Source: Niabella yanshanensis
GTDB taxonomy: Bacteria; Bacteroidota; Bacteroidia; Chitinophagales; Chitinophagaceae
Assembly: GCF_034424215.1 (NCBI RefSeq)
Contig: NZ_CP139960.1
Location: 1,550,001-1,614,000 of the forward strand
Length of the DNA: 64,000 bases
Direction: 5' to 3'
Shown: piece by piece, positions 58,644 to 64,000 of the stretch
How positions within the stretch are numbered: position 1 is the first letter of the stretch
Layout of the letters: each line of letters begins with the position of its first letter
The notes under the pieces: model-generated
Told to the model about the DNA's origin: nothing
What the model saw: only the letters and a program-made list of their open reading frames with translations
The model's database searches: none
Program-made: the position numbers and the translations under genes

Positions 58644-60140
58644 ATGGCTAAAAAATTAGCAACTACAAAAAAAACAGCTACAAAAAAGATTGCAAAGCCC
58701 GACCAGACCTTTGCAAGAACTAAAATTGTAGCAACCGTAGGCCCTGCTTGTAACACATACGACAAATTATTAGCGCTGGTACATGCAGGTGTAAATGTAT
58801 TCAGGCTCAACTTCTCTCATGGTGCCCATGAAGAAAAGAAAGATATCATTGAATACATCCGCGAGATCAACCGCGTAGAAGGCACACATGTGGCTATATT
58901 AGGCGACTTACAAGGGCCTAAATTACGTGTAGGAGAAATTGAGGGTGGCGGCATGCCGGTAAGCCCTGGCGATAAATTTATTTTTACCAGCCAGAAGATC
59001 ATCGGTAATAAAGAAAAGCTGTACATCCATTATCCTAACTTTCATACAGATGTGAAAGTAGGTAACAAGATCATGATCGACGACGGAAAGCTGGAAGTGG
59101 TAGTAAAAAAGATACTGCCTAATAATGATGTACAGGTAGAAGTATTATTGGGTGGTTTTATCTCTTCCAAAAAAGGGGTTAACCTTCCTGACACCAAGAT
59201 ATCCTTACCTGCTTTAACGCCTAAGGACCTGGCCGATCTTGACTTTATCATTCAGCAGGAACTGGACTGGGTTGCATTGAGCTTTGTACGCCAGACAGAA
59301 GATATTAAGAAGCTGAGAAAGATACTGGATAAGAAGAAGAGCCGCAGCAAGATCATTGCTAAAATAGAAATGCCTGAAGCGATTCCTAATATCCGCGACA
59401 TCATTAATGCGTCGGATGCGATTATGATTGCACGTGGCGACCTGGGTGTTGAGCTTCCGGTTGAAAAAGTACCTTTGATCCAGAAAAATATCATTAAAAA
59501 ATGTATTCACCGTGCGAAGCCTGTAATTGTGGCTACGCAGATGATGGAAAGCATGATAGACCGTACCAAGCCCAACCGCAGCGAAATTACGGATGTGGCC
59601 AACGCGGTATTGGAAGGTGCTGACGCGGTGATGCTGAGCGGGGAGACCGCTACTGGTTTACACCCAACATTGGTGGTAGAAACCATGCGTAAGATCATTG
59701 TAGAGATTGAGCGTACGGAGTATAACTACGACCTGGATGAGGTATTGCAGCCTCAGCCGCACTCCCCTACCCTTACCAGCGATGCGGTATGTTATAATGC
59801 CTGCCACCTCGCAAAGGATGTAGCGGCTAATGCCCTTATAGGTATGACACAGAGCGGCTATACCGGCTTTATGCTCAGCAGCTATCGCCCTAAAGTGCCT
59901 TTATACGTATTCACCAAGCACCCCGGCCTTATTAACCAGATGAGCCTGGCATGGGGCGTACGCAGCTTCTTATACGATGATGATGAGCGTAGCCTGGATA
60001 CCATCTTCTCCGAGCAGATCGAAATTTTAAAAACCAATGGTTATTTAAAGAAAGGAGATATTGCGGTAAGTACCGGTAGTACGCCTGTACATTTAAAAAT
60101 ACCTACTAATACGATTAAGATCACTAAGATCGAACAATAA
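58644..60140 (+). CDS. pyk: Pyruvate kinase
   Basis: 498 residues. An unusual Lys/Thr-rich N-terminal extension of about 20 residues (MAKKLATTKKTATKKIAKP) precedes TKIVATVGPACNTYDKL. The (beta/alpha)8 barrel has FRLNFSHG, the active-site Lys in IIAKIEMPEAI and the signature MIARGDLGVELP. The lid B domain and a C-terminal allosteric domain complete the protein. It makes pyruvate and ATP from PEP. With the PPi-type phosphofructokinase next door it forms a small glycolytic cluster. Confidence 0.96.
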   Translation: MAKKLATTKKTATKKIAKPDQTFARTKIVATVGPACNTYDKLLALVHAGVNVFRLNFSHGAHEEKKDIIEYIREINRVEGTHVAILGDLQGPKLRVGEIEGGGMPVSPGDKFIFTSQKIIGNKEKLYIHYPNFHTDVKVGNKIMIDDGKLEVVVKKILPNNDVQVEVLLGGFISSKKGVNLPDTKISLPALTPKDLADLDFIIQQELDWVALSFVRQTEDIKKLRKILDKKKSRSKIIAKIEMPEAIPNIRDIINASDAIMIARGDLGVELPVEKVPLIQKNIIKKCIHRAKPVIVATQMMESMIDRTKPNRSEITDVANAVLEGADAVMLSGETATGLHPTLVVETMRKIIVEIERTEYNYDLDEVLQPQPHSPTLTSDAVCYNACHLAKDVAANALIGMTQSGYTGFMLSSYRPKVPLYVFTKHPGLINQMSLAWGVRSFLYDDDERSLDTIFSEQIEILKTNGYLKKGDIAVSTGSTPVHLKIPTNTIKITKIEQ

Positions 60141-60162
60141 TTGATTAGGTTTAGATAATTGA

Positions 60163-60190
60163 AACGCCGCCTGCGAGGGTGGCGTTTTTT
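60163..60190 (+). terminator. Terminator after pyruvate kinase
   Basis: A stem AACGCCgCC / GGtGGCGTT with a short loop followed by six T. Confidence 0.85.
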
Positions 60191-60202
60191 ATAACTGATG
60201 GG

Positions 60203-60323
60203 TTTGCCACGAATACACGAATGCTTCTTGCCTGTAAGAGCAAACGGGTATATATGAATCTATAATCGCTCGTAAAATTCGTCTTACTAATACCGGAGTA
60301 TTTATTCGTGCATTAGTGGCAAA
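60203..60323. repeat. Approximately 121-bp element with 20-bp inverted ends
   Basis: The left end (60203-60222, TTTGCCACGAATACACGAAT) and the reverse complement of the right end (60304-60323, TTTGCCACTAATGCACGAAT) agree at 18 of 20 positions. The interior has no defended ORF. It resembles a miniature inverted-repeat element. Confidence 0.6.
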
Positions 60324-60332
60324 AAAACTTTT

Positions 60333-60362
60333 GGCCTTTGTTGGTGTTTTTTCACCAACAGC
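60333..60362 (+). repeat. REP hairpin 1 (forward)
   Basis: Stem TGTTGGTG / CACCAACA around TTTTTT, preceded by GGCCT. It belongs to the family at 62.1-63.2 kb but lies upstream of the erythromycin-esterase gene. Confidence 0.75.
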
Positions 60363-60428
60363 AAATAGCATTCCATAGGAACAGGTATAGAACGACATCT
60401 CAATAACTAGCTATCCCGTCCCACCCTT

Positions 60429-60459
60429 CAGTTGTCAATCAAAAAGACACAACAACGGC
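60429..60459 (-). repeat. REP hairpin 1' (reverse, degenerate)
   Basis: Read on the minus strand, GCCGTTGTTGTGTC then TTTTTG, with the closing arm mutated (ATTGACAACTG). It pairs with hairpin 1 as an inverted couple about 70 bp apart. Confidence 0.65.
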
Positions 60460-60704
60460 AGTGCGTTGAACAGCAGAGGGAGAAGATAAATCTATAAGAA
60501 TTCTATATCAGAACCCCATTTGAAATCCCGCAGTAATAAGCTCATTCCAGCTAAAAATCTATCAACTTCTTCACCAACAAATGTACTAACCTGCCCCAAC
60601 ATTCTTTCACCCCATTATTCTGCCATTTCATCACATTTCATAATAGGAGCATGATACAAAGAATCACCTTTGTAAAAATCAGTTATTGTATTAAAACATA
60701 GCGT

Positions 60705-62060
60705 ATGCCCAATGTTCGCCACAAGATTACTCTTAAAGCTCTCTTGATTAAAAAGCTTATAGCAGCTTGCATCTTCCTGTTTTGGAATGTGCCCAGTTTT
60801 GCTCAGTCAACGGCAGACAGCTCAATTGGTAATAATGCATTTGTAAGCTGGGCCCACAAACATGCTTATCCTTTGCAGGCGAGCGATAAAGCTACGGATG
60901 ATAAAGACCTGTACCCTATAAAGCAAATGATTGGCGATGCCCGTGTGGTGGCTTTGGGAGAACCGGCCCATGGCTTTCACGAGCCACTTGCTTTTAGAAA
61001 CCGGCTCTTCAAATTTTTAGTGCAGCATTGCGGCTTTACCACCATTGCCATTGAGGGCGACCTGGCCCAATCGCGGCTTGCAGCAGATTATATTGCGGGC
61101 GGCAGAGGAACGGCCAAAGATGCAGCGGCGGCATTAAGTATTGGCGAGCCTGCAGCTGAAAATATAGAACTGCTGAACTGGATGCGGCAATACAACGCCG
61201 ATAGCGCCCATACCATAAAGCTCAGGTTCTATGGTATGGATATACAGATGATCGGCTTCCCGGGAGGTACCACCCCTAACCATGCTGCGCTGGACCATGT
61301 ACTGACTTACCTTCAAAATGTTGATGAGGGTGCGGCCCGTCGGGCCAACGTTGAACTGGCCTTCTATTTAACGCAGATGTCTGTGGCGAAGTATCCGGCA
61401 CTTTCTTTAAAGGACCAGAATGTCCTTACCATAATACTGGAAAATATACTAGCCCTGCTGGAACGCCAGCGAATGGTTTTTATTAACAGGAGTTCCAAAG
61501 ACGCTTATCAATGGGCGCACCGTAACGCCATTGCCGCATTGCAGCGGGACCGGATGATGCGCGTGATACCGCCGGATCAACCAGGTAAAATACCGCCCAA
61601 CGCATGGAAAGCCATGAACGCACGCGATGCTGCTATGGCCGATAATATTAATTGGATACTTCATAACGGGGCTAATGGTGGAAAGGTATTGGTGTTTGCA
61701 CATAATGCCCACGTAAAAAATGCGCCCACCACCGGTGGCGTATGGGATGCATTTGCACAGCCACCCAACAGTGCAGGCGAATACCTGAGGTCCATATTAG
61801 GCAACAATTTTTTTATCATAGGATCCAGCATTGCTCCGGAAACGACTACACTGCAGGCAAATAGTCTCGACAAAGCACTATTACAGGTAAACCGGCCGCG
61901 GTATATACTGGATTTGAGGGCGGCTGCACCTTCTCCGGAAGTTGCTCACTGGCTTTCGTTAAACCGGCCTATGCAGGCCAATAAAGTGAGCTTTTTTATG
62001 CTGCCCGTTAGTACGGCGTTTGATGCGTTACTATTTTTGGATAAAGATGATGGGAAGTGA
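60705..62060 (+). CDS. Erythromycin esterase family protein, exported
   Basis: 451 residues. A signal peptide ends near PSFAQS. The Ere-family active-site stretches are VVALGEPAHGFHEPLAFRNRLFKFL (GEPAHG at 85-90, catalytic His 89), FTTIAIEGDLAQSRLAADYI, and KVLVFAHNAHVKN (second His cluster). It is a metal-independent esterase fold; clinical members open macrolide lactones, but many chromosomal homologues act on other esters, and a signal peptide is atypical for EreA/B. The gene is flanked on both sides by REP-like hairpins. Confidence 0.85.
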   Translation: MPNVRHKITLKALLIKKLIAACIFLFWNVPSFAQSTADSSIGNNAFVSWAHKHAYPLQASDKATDDKDLYPIKQMIGDARVVALGEPAHGFHEPLAFRNRLFKFLVQHCGFTTIAIEGDLAQSRLAADYIAGGRGTAKDAAAALSIGEPAAENIELLNWMRQYNADSAHTIKLRFYGMDIQMIGFPGGTTPNHAALDHVLTYLQNVDEGAARRANVELAFYLTQMSVAKYPALSLKDQNVLTIILENILALLERQRMVFINRSSKDAYQWAHRNAIAALQRDRMMRVIPPDQPGKIPPNAWKAMNARDAAMADNINWILHNGANGGKVLVFAHNAHVKNAPTTGGVWDAFAQPPNSAGEYLRSILGNNFFIIGSSIAPETTTLQANSLDKALLQVNRPRYILDLRAAAPSPEVAHWLSLNRPMQANKVSFFMLPVSTAFDALLFLDKDDGK

Positions 62061-62091
62061 TAGCGTAATCCTATCAAGATTGTTGCCGTAT

Positions 62092-62120
62092 GGCCGCTGT
62101 TGGTGTTTTTCACCAACAGC
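62092..62120 (+). repeat. REP hairpin 2 (forward)
   Basis: GGCC head, then a perfect stem GCTGTTGGTG / CACCAACAGC around TTTTT; 32 bp after the esterase stop codon. Confidence 0.85.
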
Positions 62121-62180
62121 AAATATATACAACAACTGATTAGGGGCGGAATAGATCAATTAATTAAAACACGCATGCTC

Positions 62181-62211
62181 CAGTTGTTGGTCAAAAAGAC
62201 ACAACAACGGC
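62181..62211 (-). repeat. REP hairpin 2' (reverse)
   Basis: Minus strand: GCCGTTGTTGTGTC, loop TTTTT, closing arm GACCAACAACTG. Inverted partner of hairpin 2. Confidence 0.8.
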
Positions 62212-62214
62212 GAG

Positions 62215-62516
62215 GCACCAACCTGCCTTTGTCATTTTCGTCACTGTTGGTATTTTTAAACAACGGCAATATATTATTTAACAATAGCTGATACAAAAAC
62301 ACACACCCAACAATTAACTATCCGGCCGCCCTTCAGTTGTTGGTCAAAAGACACAACAACGGCAAGGCGCCAACCTGCCTTTGTCATTTTCGTCACTGTT
62401 GGTATTTTTCACCAACAGCAATATATTATTTAACAATAGCTGATTCAGAAATACTGCCTCAACATTCAGCTATGCTGCCGCGCTTCAGTTGTTGGTCAAA
62501 AAAAAACAACAATGGC
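62215..62516. repeat. Tandem BIME-like array, period about 152 bp
   Basis: Two near-identical units start at 62215 and 62367. Each contains CCAACCTGCCTTTGTC, a forward hairpin (62241-62267 degenerate; 62393-62419 good), AATATATTATTTAACAATAG, about 45 bp of diverged spacer, and a reverse hairpin (62334-62363; 62486-62516). The period is the same whether measured between forward or reverse hairpins, so whole pairs were duplicated. Confidence 0.8.
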
Positions 62517-62560
62517 AGCGAACGGATTTTGCTTCAACAACGCCTTCTTCCGTGTCCTTC

Positions 62561-62589
62561 GGCCGCTGTTGGTGTTTCTCACCAACAGC
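62561..62589 (+). repeat. REP hairpin 5 (forward), at the 3' side of the transposase gene
   Basis: GGCC head, stem GCTGTTGGTG / CACCAACAGC, loop TTTCT (one change from the array copies). It ends 15 bp before the transposase stop codon. Confidence 0.85.
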
Positions 62590-62603
62590 AAAATACCATC
62601 ATT

Positions 62604-63122
62604 TCAGTCTGCATGATGCGATAAAAAGCCCCAGTTATCCACTCCCGTTCTATAAAACTGTGCTGATGAATATAAATACTCTTCCGGATACTTACATAAG
62701 CCGGCGCGAACCGGATTGAAATGTATGTAGTCGAGTTTTTGCTGAAAAAAAATGTGACTTCTCAATTCAATACTTAAAGGATTACGCTCCCAAAACTGAT
62801 ACATCCTATCGGCTGCTCCTACAAAAAACGCTTGCAACATTTCCGGGTCGTGTTGTTGCATATGATATTTTATCTGCTGTGCTGTATACTTTAAAAAGTC
62901 TCTTTGTACATGGGTAGGATGAATAAGCGGCTGCATCTGCCATATAAGGTGTAGGTGATTGGGCATTATAACGAATGCATACAGCTTTATCCTTTTATTT
63001 TCGACGAGAAAGCGGAGACTACTTATTACTATTTCTTTATTCGCTACTGTTTTCAATAATGGCTTCCACTCCAAATTTGTAGCTGTAAAAAATTGTGGGT
63101 ATTCAGTGATTAGCGCAACCAT
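62604..63122 (-). CDS. REP-associated tyrosine transposase (RAYT), Y1/HUH family
   Basis: 172 residues, a normal length for the family. The HUH motif is MPNHLHLIW with H56 and H58. The C-terminal YIHFNPVRAGL..PEEYLYSSA block is the RAYT hallmark, and Y132 within it is the probable catalytic tyrosine. These enzymes nick and join single-stranded REP hairpins and are domesticated, usually single-copy relatives of IS200/IS605 transposases. The gene is bracketed by oppositely oriented REP hairpins at 62561-62589 and 63171-63197 and adjoins a REP array, which defines its probable substrate. Confidence 0.92.
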   Translation of the reverse strand: MVALITEYPQFFTATNLEWKPLLKTVANKEIVISSLRFLVENKRIKLYAFVIMPNHLHLIWQMQPLIHPTHVQRDFLKYTAQQIKYHMQQHDPEMLQAFFVGAADRMYQFWERNPLSIELRSHIFFQQKLDYIHFNPVRAGLCKYPEEYLYSSAQFYRTGVDNWGFLSHHAD

Positions 63123-63170
63123 GATATGAATATCTGATACCTAAAAATAAGCAAAATCGACCGTAAAAAT

Positions 63171-63197
63171 TTGTTGGTGAAAAACACCAACAACGGC
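63171..63197 (-). repeat. REP hairpin 6 (reverse), at the 5' side of the transposase gene
   Basis: Minus strand: GCCGTTGTTGGTG, loop TTTTT, CACCAACAA. It starts 48 bp upstream of the RAYT start codon and points opposite to hairpin 5, so the gene lies between an inverted pair. Confidence 0.85.
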
Positions 63198-63198
63198 A

Positions 63199-63348
63199 TC
63201 AATTTTCTTTTAAGAGATACTTGCTGCCGTCGTAGCCATCTTTATGAAAATAACACTTTTTCTCTTTTTTGATTCCAGCGACAAATGCTCTTATTCCATA
63301 TAGGAATAGAAGAATACCAATTATACAATAGATAATTAGCTCAATCAT
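63199..63348 (-). CDS. Possible 49-residue membrane peptide
   Basis: ATG at 63346-63348 (minus), stop at 63199-63201. It begins MIELIIYCIIGILLFLYGIR, a hydrophobic helix, and ends with a basic, Tyr-rich tail (KKEKKCYFHKDGYDGSKYLL). The protein-like composition and the hydrophobic N-terminus argue for a real gene, but no family is recognised. Its stop codon abuts REP hairpin 6. Confidence 0.45.
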   Translation of the reverse strand: MIELIIYCIIGILLFLYGIRAFVAGIKKEKKCYFHKDGYDGSKYLLKEN

Positions 63349-63404
63349 ATCTGAAAACGGTTGACACTATGTATCCTTTAACCAATTTAATCAATGTCTA
63401 TTTG

Positions 63405-63785
63405 TTACACTACTTTAAAAATATCAATAATTTCAGGATCCTGGTATAACGAATCACTATTATAAATGGTAGCGATATAATTTCGATCTTGCTGATCTTT
63501 AAAAGTTATAATATCCAGAAATTCTTTTATATCTGAACTTCTTGCGGGCAATTGAACATCATCCTTACGTTCTATATGGTCAATCTTTCCTGCTTCAATC
63601 AGCGCCACTATTTCGGGATACCTGTCCCTATCAAAAGCTATATATTGCACTTGCTGTAGACTATTGACCGAATCAATACCAAACTGGTTATCGCTAATAA
63701 TTCCTTGAATAACTTGTCTGTCATATATCGACATATAATTTGCATCCTCCAACATCTTATCCTTTTTGATCCTATTGTCAGGCAC
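63405..63785 (-). CDS. Hypothetical protein, unknown
   Basis: 126 residues, acidic, soluble, no signal peptide. An internal start at MLEDANYMSIYDRQVIQG (11th codon) is equally plausible. No family recognised; the composition (IVALIEAGKIDHIERKDDVQLPARSSDIKEFLDIITFKDQQD) looks like a small immunity or accessory protein but that is only an impression. AT-rich like its neighbours. Confidence 0.5.
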   Translation of the reverse strand: MPDNRIKKDKMLEDANYMSIYDRQVIQGIISDNQFGIDSVNSLQQVQYIAFDRDRYPEIVALIEAGKIDHIERKDDVQLPARSSDIKEFLDIITFKDQQDRNYIATIYNSDSLYQDPEIIDIFKVV

Positions 63786-63820
63786 TATTTTTATTTTTCA
63801 TCGATAGCAAGCAGCTTCTA

Positions 63821-63849
63821 TTGCCTTGCGAAAAGAAGCAACAACGGCA
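63821..63849 (-). repeat. REP-like hairpin 7 (reverse, diverged)
   Basis: Minus strand: TTGCCGTTGTTGC, a pyrimidine-rich loop TTCTTTTC, GCAAGGCAA. It keeps the GCCGTTGTTG head of the family while the stem has changed to GCCGTTGTTGC/GCAAGGCAA. Confidence 0.5.
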
Positions 63850-63876
63850 ACTCTCTAAATACTTGCTACGTAAAAA

Positions 63877-63996
63877 TCATTCAATCAACCTTATATCGGT
63901 CGCATAAGCAAGCAGGTTACTGCACGCCAGATACTTCTTACTATTTTTATCTAATATATAATATCCACAACTTTTTTCCATTTTTCTTCTAGGCAT
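63877..63996 (-). CDS. Short or partial ORF at right edge
   Basis: An open frame on the minus strand, ending in TGA at 63877 and open to the window edge, with an ATG at 63996 (39 codons, MPRRKMEKSCGYYILDKNSK). It could be the C-terminal end of a gene continuing to the right. No family recognised. Confidence 0.3.
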   Translation of the reverse strand: MPRRKMEKSCGYYILDKNSKKYLACSNLLAYATDIRLIE

Positions 63997-64000
63997 ATCT

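Follow-up and report, generated by a model that had tools for sequence, protein, structure and literature searches.

RAYTs and the REPs that they act on are best approached through the E. coli REPtron, in which the gene for TnpAREP (group 2, subclass 2.2) lies between inverted REPs and REP pairs form BIME-like arrays. Passages of PMC8266576 and PMC6006769 describe the GTAG head, guide-directed cutting and the co-evolution of RAYTs with their REPs, and state that mobility of tnpAREP is without evidence. The text of PMC6006769 gives W94, Q95, E100, H101 and R104 as the positions of E. coli TnpAREP that contact GTAG, and PMC8049555, in its passages on RAYTs, treats them as domesticated and without self-copying. 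Further arrangements appear in PMC3733652 (Di Nocera et al. 2013), whose text covers GTAG and CGTC families as well as TIRtrons, in which a RAYT-like gene (TIRYT) lies between terminal inverted repeats that recur elsewhere. From Bacteroidetes comes subclass 2.6 of Quentin et al. 2018, which is group 5 of Bertels. PMC6006769 describes its hairpins as "atypical secondary structures" without GT[AG]G and with copies elsewhere in the genome; the text of that paper, as distinct from its Table S1, names no head for them. Literature searches turned up neither a GCC head nor a RAYT described as mobile; Bertels 2017 and the supplementary tables lay outside these searches, and the head may be described there.

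The locus analyzed here is in Niabella yanshanensis, the genome of which is a single contig of 5.54 Mb. The window, a stretch of 64,000 nucleotides, corresponds to positions 1,550,001-1,614,000. A first-pass annotation of the window proposed a REPtron with a non-canonical head. The REPtron is real, and the interpretation given to it is partly supported by the comparisons below.

The RAYT gene and its protein

The gene occupies 62604-63122 on the minus strand and encodes a protein of 172 residues; it was defined by ORF call, family models, alignment and a structure model. The protein scores 88.8 bits against the NCBIfam model NF047646, "REP-associated tyrosine transposase" (cut-off 80), and 26.9 bits against Pfam Y1_Tnp (cut-off 23). 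The alignment places NHLH at residues 55-58, a tryptophan at W111, Tyr132 within YIHFNP and SS at 152-153, and so both the HuH motif and the class 2 tyrosine motif (Y---NP) are present. An AlphaFold2 model built with 38 relatives has a mean pLDDT of 94.3. Among 1166 Foldseek matches to it with E ≤ 10, the first is 4er8 (E 1.1e-9, TM 0.68/0.70), the structure of E. coli TnpAREP in complex with a REP; when PDB sequences were searched with a profile, 4er8 again came first, of two matches. By family model, motifs and TnpAREP fold the protein is a RAYT, and it shares with E. coli TnpAREP the HuH and Tyr motifs, the Y...NP signature and the fold. The genome has one close RAYT copy.

A simple IS200 element was rejected as an explanation of the gene. 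The IS200-type model NF033573 gives 22.2 bits, under its cut-off of 55, and the tyrosine motif is the class 2 Y...NP, not the Y...Q of IS200/IS605. The likenesses to IS200/IS605 are the presumed Y1/HUH chemistry, hairpin ends that carry a guide-like stretch on the 5' side of the foot, and the lack of any target duplication visible by eye at the ends compared.

The gene was compared with other RAYT loci in a screen of 160, with 80 from database records and 80 from genomes including its own; known duplicates were removed, others may remain, and a 161st locus (L207) gave no match. Tblastn scores against the window protein define group A (at least 146 bits, 61 loci), group B (110-146, 39 loci) and group C (below 110, 60 loci). 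On sequence, the window gene can be filed as a RAYT of a 2.6-like lineage. It shares with subclass 2.6 its occurrence in Bacteroidetes, the NH[LIV]H and SS motifs, and atypical hairpins without GTRG. In the text on that subclass the motifs are WQ and YIH[QN]NP, compared with WE and YIHFNP in the window protein, and the spacing from HuH to Y is 82 there and in group C but 74 in groups A and B, a difference to which the method of measuring may contribute. Group C fits subclass 2.6 better than the window protein does.

The alignment of 156 proteins also contains 15 that belong to a distant RAYT homologue in which one or both HuH histidines are replaced (NKLY, for example). Thirteen of the 15 come from Niabella genomes, and in most of those displayed the catalytic Tyr is L or F. 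The loci noted are L154, at 2744.9 kb of the N. yanshanensis contig, and L188-L190, L193-L195, L197, L198 and L203-L206. This homologue may be a RAYT derivative that is catalytically dead but has been retained.

Flanking hairpins and the REP array

The RAYT gene is bracketed by two hairpins in opposite orientation. The left REP, at 62562-62589 on the plus strand, has the head GCC at 62562-62564, a 10-nt arm at 62565-62574, the loop TTTCT and a second arm ending at 62589. The right REP, at 63170-63197 on the minus strand, has the head GCC at 63197-63195, a 10-nt arm and the loop TTTTT, with the first stem pair mismatched. A covariance model (CM) built from 36 Niabella REP copies matches them at 48.1 and 48.6 bits, respectively. 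The segments 62562-62587 and 63172-63197 form an inverted pair of 26 nt that is 92% complementary, and both heads point outward, away from the gene. Folded as single-stranded DNA the two hairpins have z-scores of -5.8 and -4.2, and for each of them none of 200 shuffles was as good. The whole cassette, to which no strand is assigned, spans 62562-63202 as judged by head-to-head similarity to the copy in Niabella defluvii. The right REP stands upstream of the RAYT gene and might shield it from read-through.

The pattern TGTTGGTG-N2-10-CACCAACA occurs four times in the window versus zero times in 100 shuffles, and six times in the whole genome versus zero for a reversed-pattern control. For the looser GTTGGT-N4-9-ACCAAC the genome count is 16, versus one for its control. 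With the NF047646 score, the 4er8 fold and the complementary inverted pair, the first-pass claim of a RAYT between its own inverted hairpins is borne out.

The nearby array that had been proposed is also real. Hairpins alternate in orientation from 62093 to 62516, adjoining the cassette. A plus-strand REP at 62093-62120, with its head GCC at 62093, and a minus-strand REP at 62184-62211, a TTGTTGTGTC variant with a bulge, form a head-outward pair, or REPIN. They are followed by a degenerate REP with the head GTC at 62244-62266 (plus), a REP at 62337-62364 (minus), one with the head GTC at 62396-62419 (plus) and a degenerate one at 62489-62516 (minus). An outlying REPIN consists of a GCC-headed REP at 60334-60361 (plus) and its partner at 60425-60464 (minus). 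Head-outward pairs are found both in the window and at 541-547 kb, which is the arrangement of REPINs and BIMEs, inverted pairs with a spacer that are dispersed outside genes. The E. coli REPtron differs in having GTAG in place of GCC and a stem bulge, which is missing from most aligned copies here.

Immediately upstream of the array, 60705-62060 encodes an erythromycin-esterase family protein (Pfam PF05139, 158.9 bits). The second cluster of REP pairs in the genome, at 539-547 kb (L008, L043), is of a slightly different subtype, and its pairs are interspersed with small genes; of the 7 kb used there as a query, most has no match in G012, another Niabella genome, or in G003, that of N. defluvii.

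Position and conservation of the GCC head

Hairpins near the screened genes were oriented by the pyrimidine content of the loop, with the head ignored. Those counted had loops of 3-7 nt, belonged to families of at least two copies and lay no more than 600 bp from the gene. Such families were found at 41 of 61 loci in group A, 30 of 39 in B and 13 of 60 in C, leaving 20, 9 and 47 loci with no family of at least two copies. In 51 of the 82 hairpins of group A, 27 of 65 in B and none of 25 in C, GCC directly abuts the foot of the 10-nt arm, starting at offset -3; since the loci are related, these are counts and not independent trials. At the 3' mirror position it occurs in 1/82, 1/65 and 0/25, and at any other offset in the 40 nt upstream in at most 6 (A), at most 4 (B) and fewer than 3 (C) hairpins. 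The other common heads of group B are TCC (12) and CCC (5). In group C the base at -1 of the stem is T in 21 of 25 hairpins and never C. With GCC absent and T at -1 in group C, the head follows the RAYT lineage.

Under the loop rule, 68 of 82 hairpins of group A and 51 of 65 of group B have their heads directed away from the gene, as do only 14 of 25 of group C. When hairpins were oriented by gene position alone the contrast was weaker, with GCC at the foot in 47 of 97 versus 12 at the mirror position (A) and in 24 of 68 versus 7 (B). The finding of a head that is not GTAG and that recurs across Bacteroidota RAYTs agrees with the first-pass annotation.

The proposed tetranucleotide GCCG fared differently. 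Its first three bases are shared, with GCC as the head in 24 of the 36 aligned Niabella copies, but the fourth is the first base of the stem and varies (G 20, T 7, A 6, C 3), so a fixed GCCG was rejected. Among 19 aligned copies from the N. yanshanensis genome the head is GCC in 15, GTC in 3 and GCT in 1; none has GT[AG]G. Judged from these alignments, the head is the trinucleotide GCC immediately 5' of the 10-nt arm, and it changes with the RAYT lineage.

The stem is conserved on the loop side, where it reads GTTGGTG or GTTGGTC in group A and GGTCTGTG, GGTTCGTG and others in group B, and this conservation extends across many Bacteroidota records and a few Ignavibacteria records. Stems as unlike as GTTGGTG, GGTCTGTG and GGTTCGTG have in common heads ending in CC. 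The counts cover short loops; relatives with loops of about 24-30 nt (G007, G016, G020, L064, L108) were inspected by eye, which showed GCC ahead of the stem in G020 and L108 and in parts of G016 and L064. In G007, which has a close RAYT and long-loop hairpins, GCC is not at the foot in the four family members found. The close RAYTs of G007, G020 and G016 (L014, L015 and L023) are flanked by hairpins with loops of about 24-25 nt rather than 4-5. The N. defluvii copy (L096) has one reversed loop, and the loop rule for that reason labels its head T.

Residue 116 and the head

All columns of an alignment of 156 RAYT proteins of at least 140 residues were screened against the head, and residue 116 was picked post hoc from this screen. 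A head was labelled at 84 loci. The loci used were those whose head was clearly C (59) or clearly T (15). The ten left out had no clear majority (L092, L106, L114, L022, L156, L180), a protein shorter than 140 residues (L094, L096) or an A head (L125, L167). Residue 116 is Leu at 59 of 59 C-head loci and other than Leu at 13 of 15 T-head loci. Unlabelled loci with F or Y at this position have single hairpins with heads ending in T (L081, L123) or A (L082, L105).

In an HMM alignment the segment W111-R121 aligns with W94-R104 of the E. coli protein, and L116 lies opposite W99. W111, E112, S117, I118 and R121 lie opposite the GTAG contacts W94, Q95, E100, H101 and R104; with S117 and I118 in their places, E100 and H101 are replaced in the window protein. 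A tree of 75 loci, from which residues 109-121 were excluded, has at least five changes of head and at least three of residue 116. All three non-Leu groups have non-C heads, and two groups with non-C heads keep Leu (L113/L161; L125). For a sign test there were too few pairs; the changes amount to about three independent ones, below significance. The association of residue 116 with the head is a lead, not a result.

REP number and the presence of the gene

With hits taken at E ≤ 1, the covariance model finds 29 REPs in the N. yanshanensis genome, 29 in G012, 37 in G003 and 31 in G001. Among the 22 N. yanshanensis hits listed, 11 lie at 1610.3-1614.2 kb, eight at 539-547 kb and three elsewhere, at 2786, 3380 and 4754 kb; these three were not used in building the model. 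The hairpins that flank the gene do recur elsewhere in the genome. Their number is low compared with IS200/IS605, and is below the more than 100 copies of REPINs and BIMEs both here (29) and in all 59 genomes compared, where the maximum pattern count is 95 (G019).

The first-pass annotation expected copy number to track the gene. Of 11 genomes with a close RAYT, 8 had at least ten CM hits, versus 4 of 48 without such a gene (59 genomes; Fisher 3e-5), the 11 including broken copies in G003 and G016 and scans of more than 40 genomes having been run with stricter filters. The plain pattern gave 6 of 11 versus 3 of 48 (Fisher 7e-4). The association is real but loose. Strict tracking was rejected: G001, G021, G035 and G026 have at least ten hits without a close RAYT, and the first three of these stand against it together with G017, which has strong CM hits and no RAYT match at 1e-5. 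REPs without a close RAYT could be due to loss of the gene, to contigs that are missing or to other RAYTs that act in trans.

The REPs of G021, G017, G035 and G001 (L155, L158, L215-L221, L225, L228), where no close RAYT was found, are GCC-headed and of the TTGGTG type. In the draft genome G021 several contigs end near such REPs.

Cassette ends and positions

The cassettes of N. yanshanensis and N. defluvii align over 651 columns at 74%, from the left head to just past the right head, and their flanks differ. In G012 the RAYT is 94% identical and at the same locus as in N. yanshanensis; in N. defluvii the cassette is at a different locus from both. The N. defluvii interval that matches the N. 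yanshanensis locus, after the erythromycin-esterase-family gene, holds two REPINs (by eye) and no RAYT match. Conversely, the N. yanshanensis counterpart of one flank of the N. defluvii RAYT has no RAYT. Neighboring stretches of the two genomes are 74-87% identical, with the esterase interval at 74%, so the 74% of the cassette is by itself uninformative on transfer; the idea that the RAYT is less conserved than its neighbors was dropped in view of the same range.

The neighborhoods of the RAYTs of N. defluvii and G012 (L149, L150) have small variable genes between REPs, and about 1.3 kb common to them (82%) is unmatched in the window or in L007. In the deposited N. defluvii sequence (L096) both the RAYT and the esterase-family gene are fragmented, possibly through sequencing errors.

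More than one cassette copy is present in some genomes. Two contigs of the MAG UWPOB_CHIT5 carry cassettes (L058 and L060) that are 88% identical over 647 bp, with common limits running from ACGCC-hairpin to hairpin-GGCGTAAA; blastn found no similarity between their flanks (E 1e-10, over 80 bp). L060 has an additional copy that is internally deleted and keeps both ends. In another MAG, L061 has the same limits and is 92% identical to L060. A Roseivirga record (L098) has two copies of 648 bp, 87% identical and limited at the heads; their starts are separated by 1180 bp, and they may stem from a local duplication. Among 19 genomes searched, two full-length near-identical copies were found in G059 and G076, one full and one partial copy in G060, further fragments in G066 and G067, and two full-length copies in G070. 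This evidence comes mainly from MAGs and from flanks of about 2.5 kb.

Inspection by eye of the cassette ends compared revealed no target duplication, and searches for empty sites gave no clean case: at 4754 kb a REP block is absent from G012 and N. defluvii, but its edges are blurred, and more than the cassette sets the G079 counterpart apart from the L060 locus. On plasmids no close RAYT was found, with matches in 5 of 72,556 records at identities of 29-36%. The sequences compared suggest that the cassette ends are the REPs and that the unit looks movable. The first-pass annotation had set its REPtron against a simple IS200 element with its own ends; one part of that description applies, in that the REPs coincide with the apparent cassette ends, but the gene is a RAYT. 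TIRtrons are similar in plan but differ from this locus in two respects: the inverted repeats here are headed hairpins, and near-identical cassettes lie in dissimilar flanks within one MAG.

Proposed mechanism and alternative explanations

We favor, at a probability of roughly 0.7, a RAYT-type Y1/HUH transposase cassette that is bounded by its own REP hairpins, with the REPINs and sometimes the gene unit being mobile. Each REP consists of a 3-nt head (GCC here), a 10-nt arm ending in GTTGGTG or GTTGGTC, a pyrimidine-rich loop of 3-5 nt and the complementary arm. By analogy with E. coli TnpAREP and IS608, the RAYT would bind one strand of the extruded hairpin and, with the head as guide, cut and rejoin single-stranded DNA nearby. 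Outward-facing REP pairs would be mobilized as small REPINs, and sometimes the pair around the gene would move in one piece with it. The same analogy underlies the proposed cutting, guide role and transposition. What the alignments show directly is the anatomy, the constant position of the head, the way in which the head depends on lineage, and the head-to-head limits in dissimilar flanks.

The strongest competitor, which we consider unlikely, is an ordinary immobile and domesticated RAYT that mobilizes REPINs in trans, the gene being inherited vertically or by recombination and its positions explained by rearrangement or loss. The single close copy in N. yanshanensis, the shared locus in G012 and the reported want of evidence for tnpAREP mobility are all as this explanation would have them, as is a cassette identity between N. 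yanshanensis and N. defluvii no lower than that of the adjoining esterase interval. It has to contend with the 88% identical cassettes of one MAG, which share head-to-head limits in dissimilar flanks, with the deletion derivative that keeps both ends, and with the different loci occupied in N. yanshanensis and G012 versus N. defluvii. A guide role for the head could also be dispensed with if GCC were simply part of a repeat inherited from one ancestor. Common descent does explain part of the pattern, given the related loci and the conserved loop-side stem GTTGGTG. We judge it improbable as the whole explanation: GCC stays while the first stem base, which lies between it and the conserved stem, varies; the 3' side has no such conservation (mirror 1/82); and the unlike stems noted above keep heads ending in CC.

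Finally, stable hairpins between genes might act in transcription termination or as structures at mRNA ends, with no relation to the transposase and only a chance position beside its gene. On the minus strand the right hairpin (63193-63171) matches a terminator pattern, with a T run after it, and 62000-63500 contains seven terminator-like matches versus 1.1 expected. A terminator role in addition to the REP role is possible. As a replacement for the REP role it is very improbable, as the left cassette hairpin is absent from the terminator list, no known RNA family reaches its Rfam gathering score in 60000-64000, and neither the fixed head offset, the families of at least two copies nor the change of head with RAYT lineage is in keeping with terminators.

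The mobile cassette bounded by its own REPs admits a bolder form, which we hold tentatively and at somewhat less than even odds. A Bacteroidota RAYT lineage may have kept autonomous mobility, with the gene and two REPs behaving like an IS, deletion derivatives becoming REPINs, and a 3-nt guide of the GCC/GCT type changing with residue 116 (L to H, F or Y).

Significance

The locus has a different and precisely placed head of three nucleotides, with REP stems that are conserved over much of a phylum. Such a lineage would make the choice of guide by RAYTs testable, and the link between head and residue 116 points to one position of the protein for specificity. Cassette ends that coincide in different flanks would make the question of domesticated versus mobile RAYTs testable as well. 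Were the bolder form true, the lineage would represent a living stage between IS200-type elements and domesticated RAYTs, one whose specificity code can be read.
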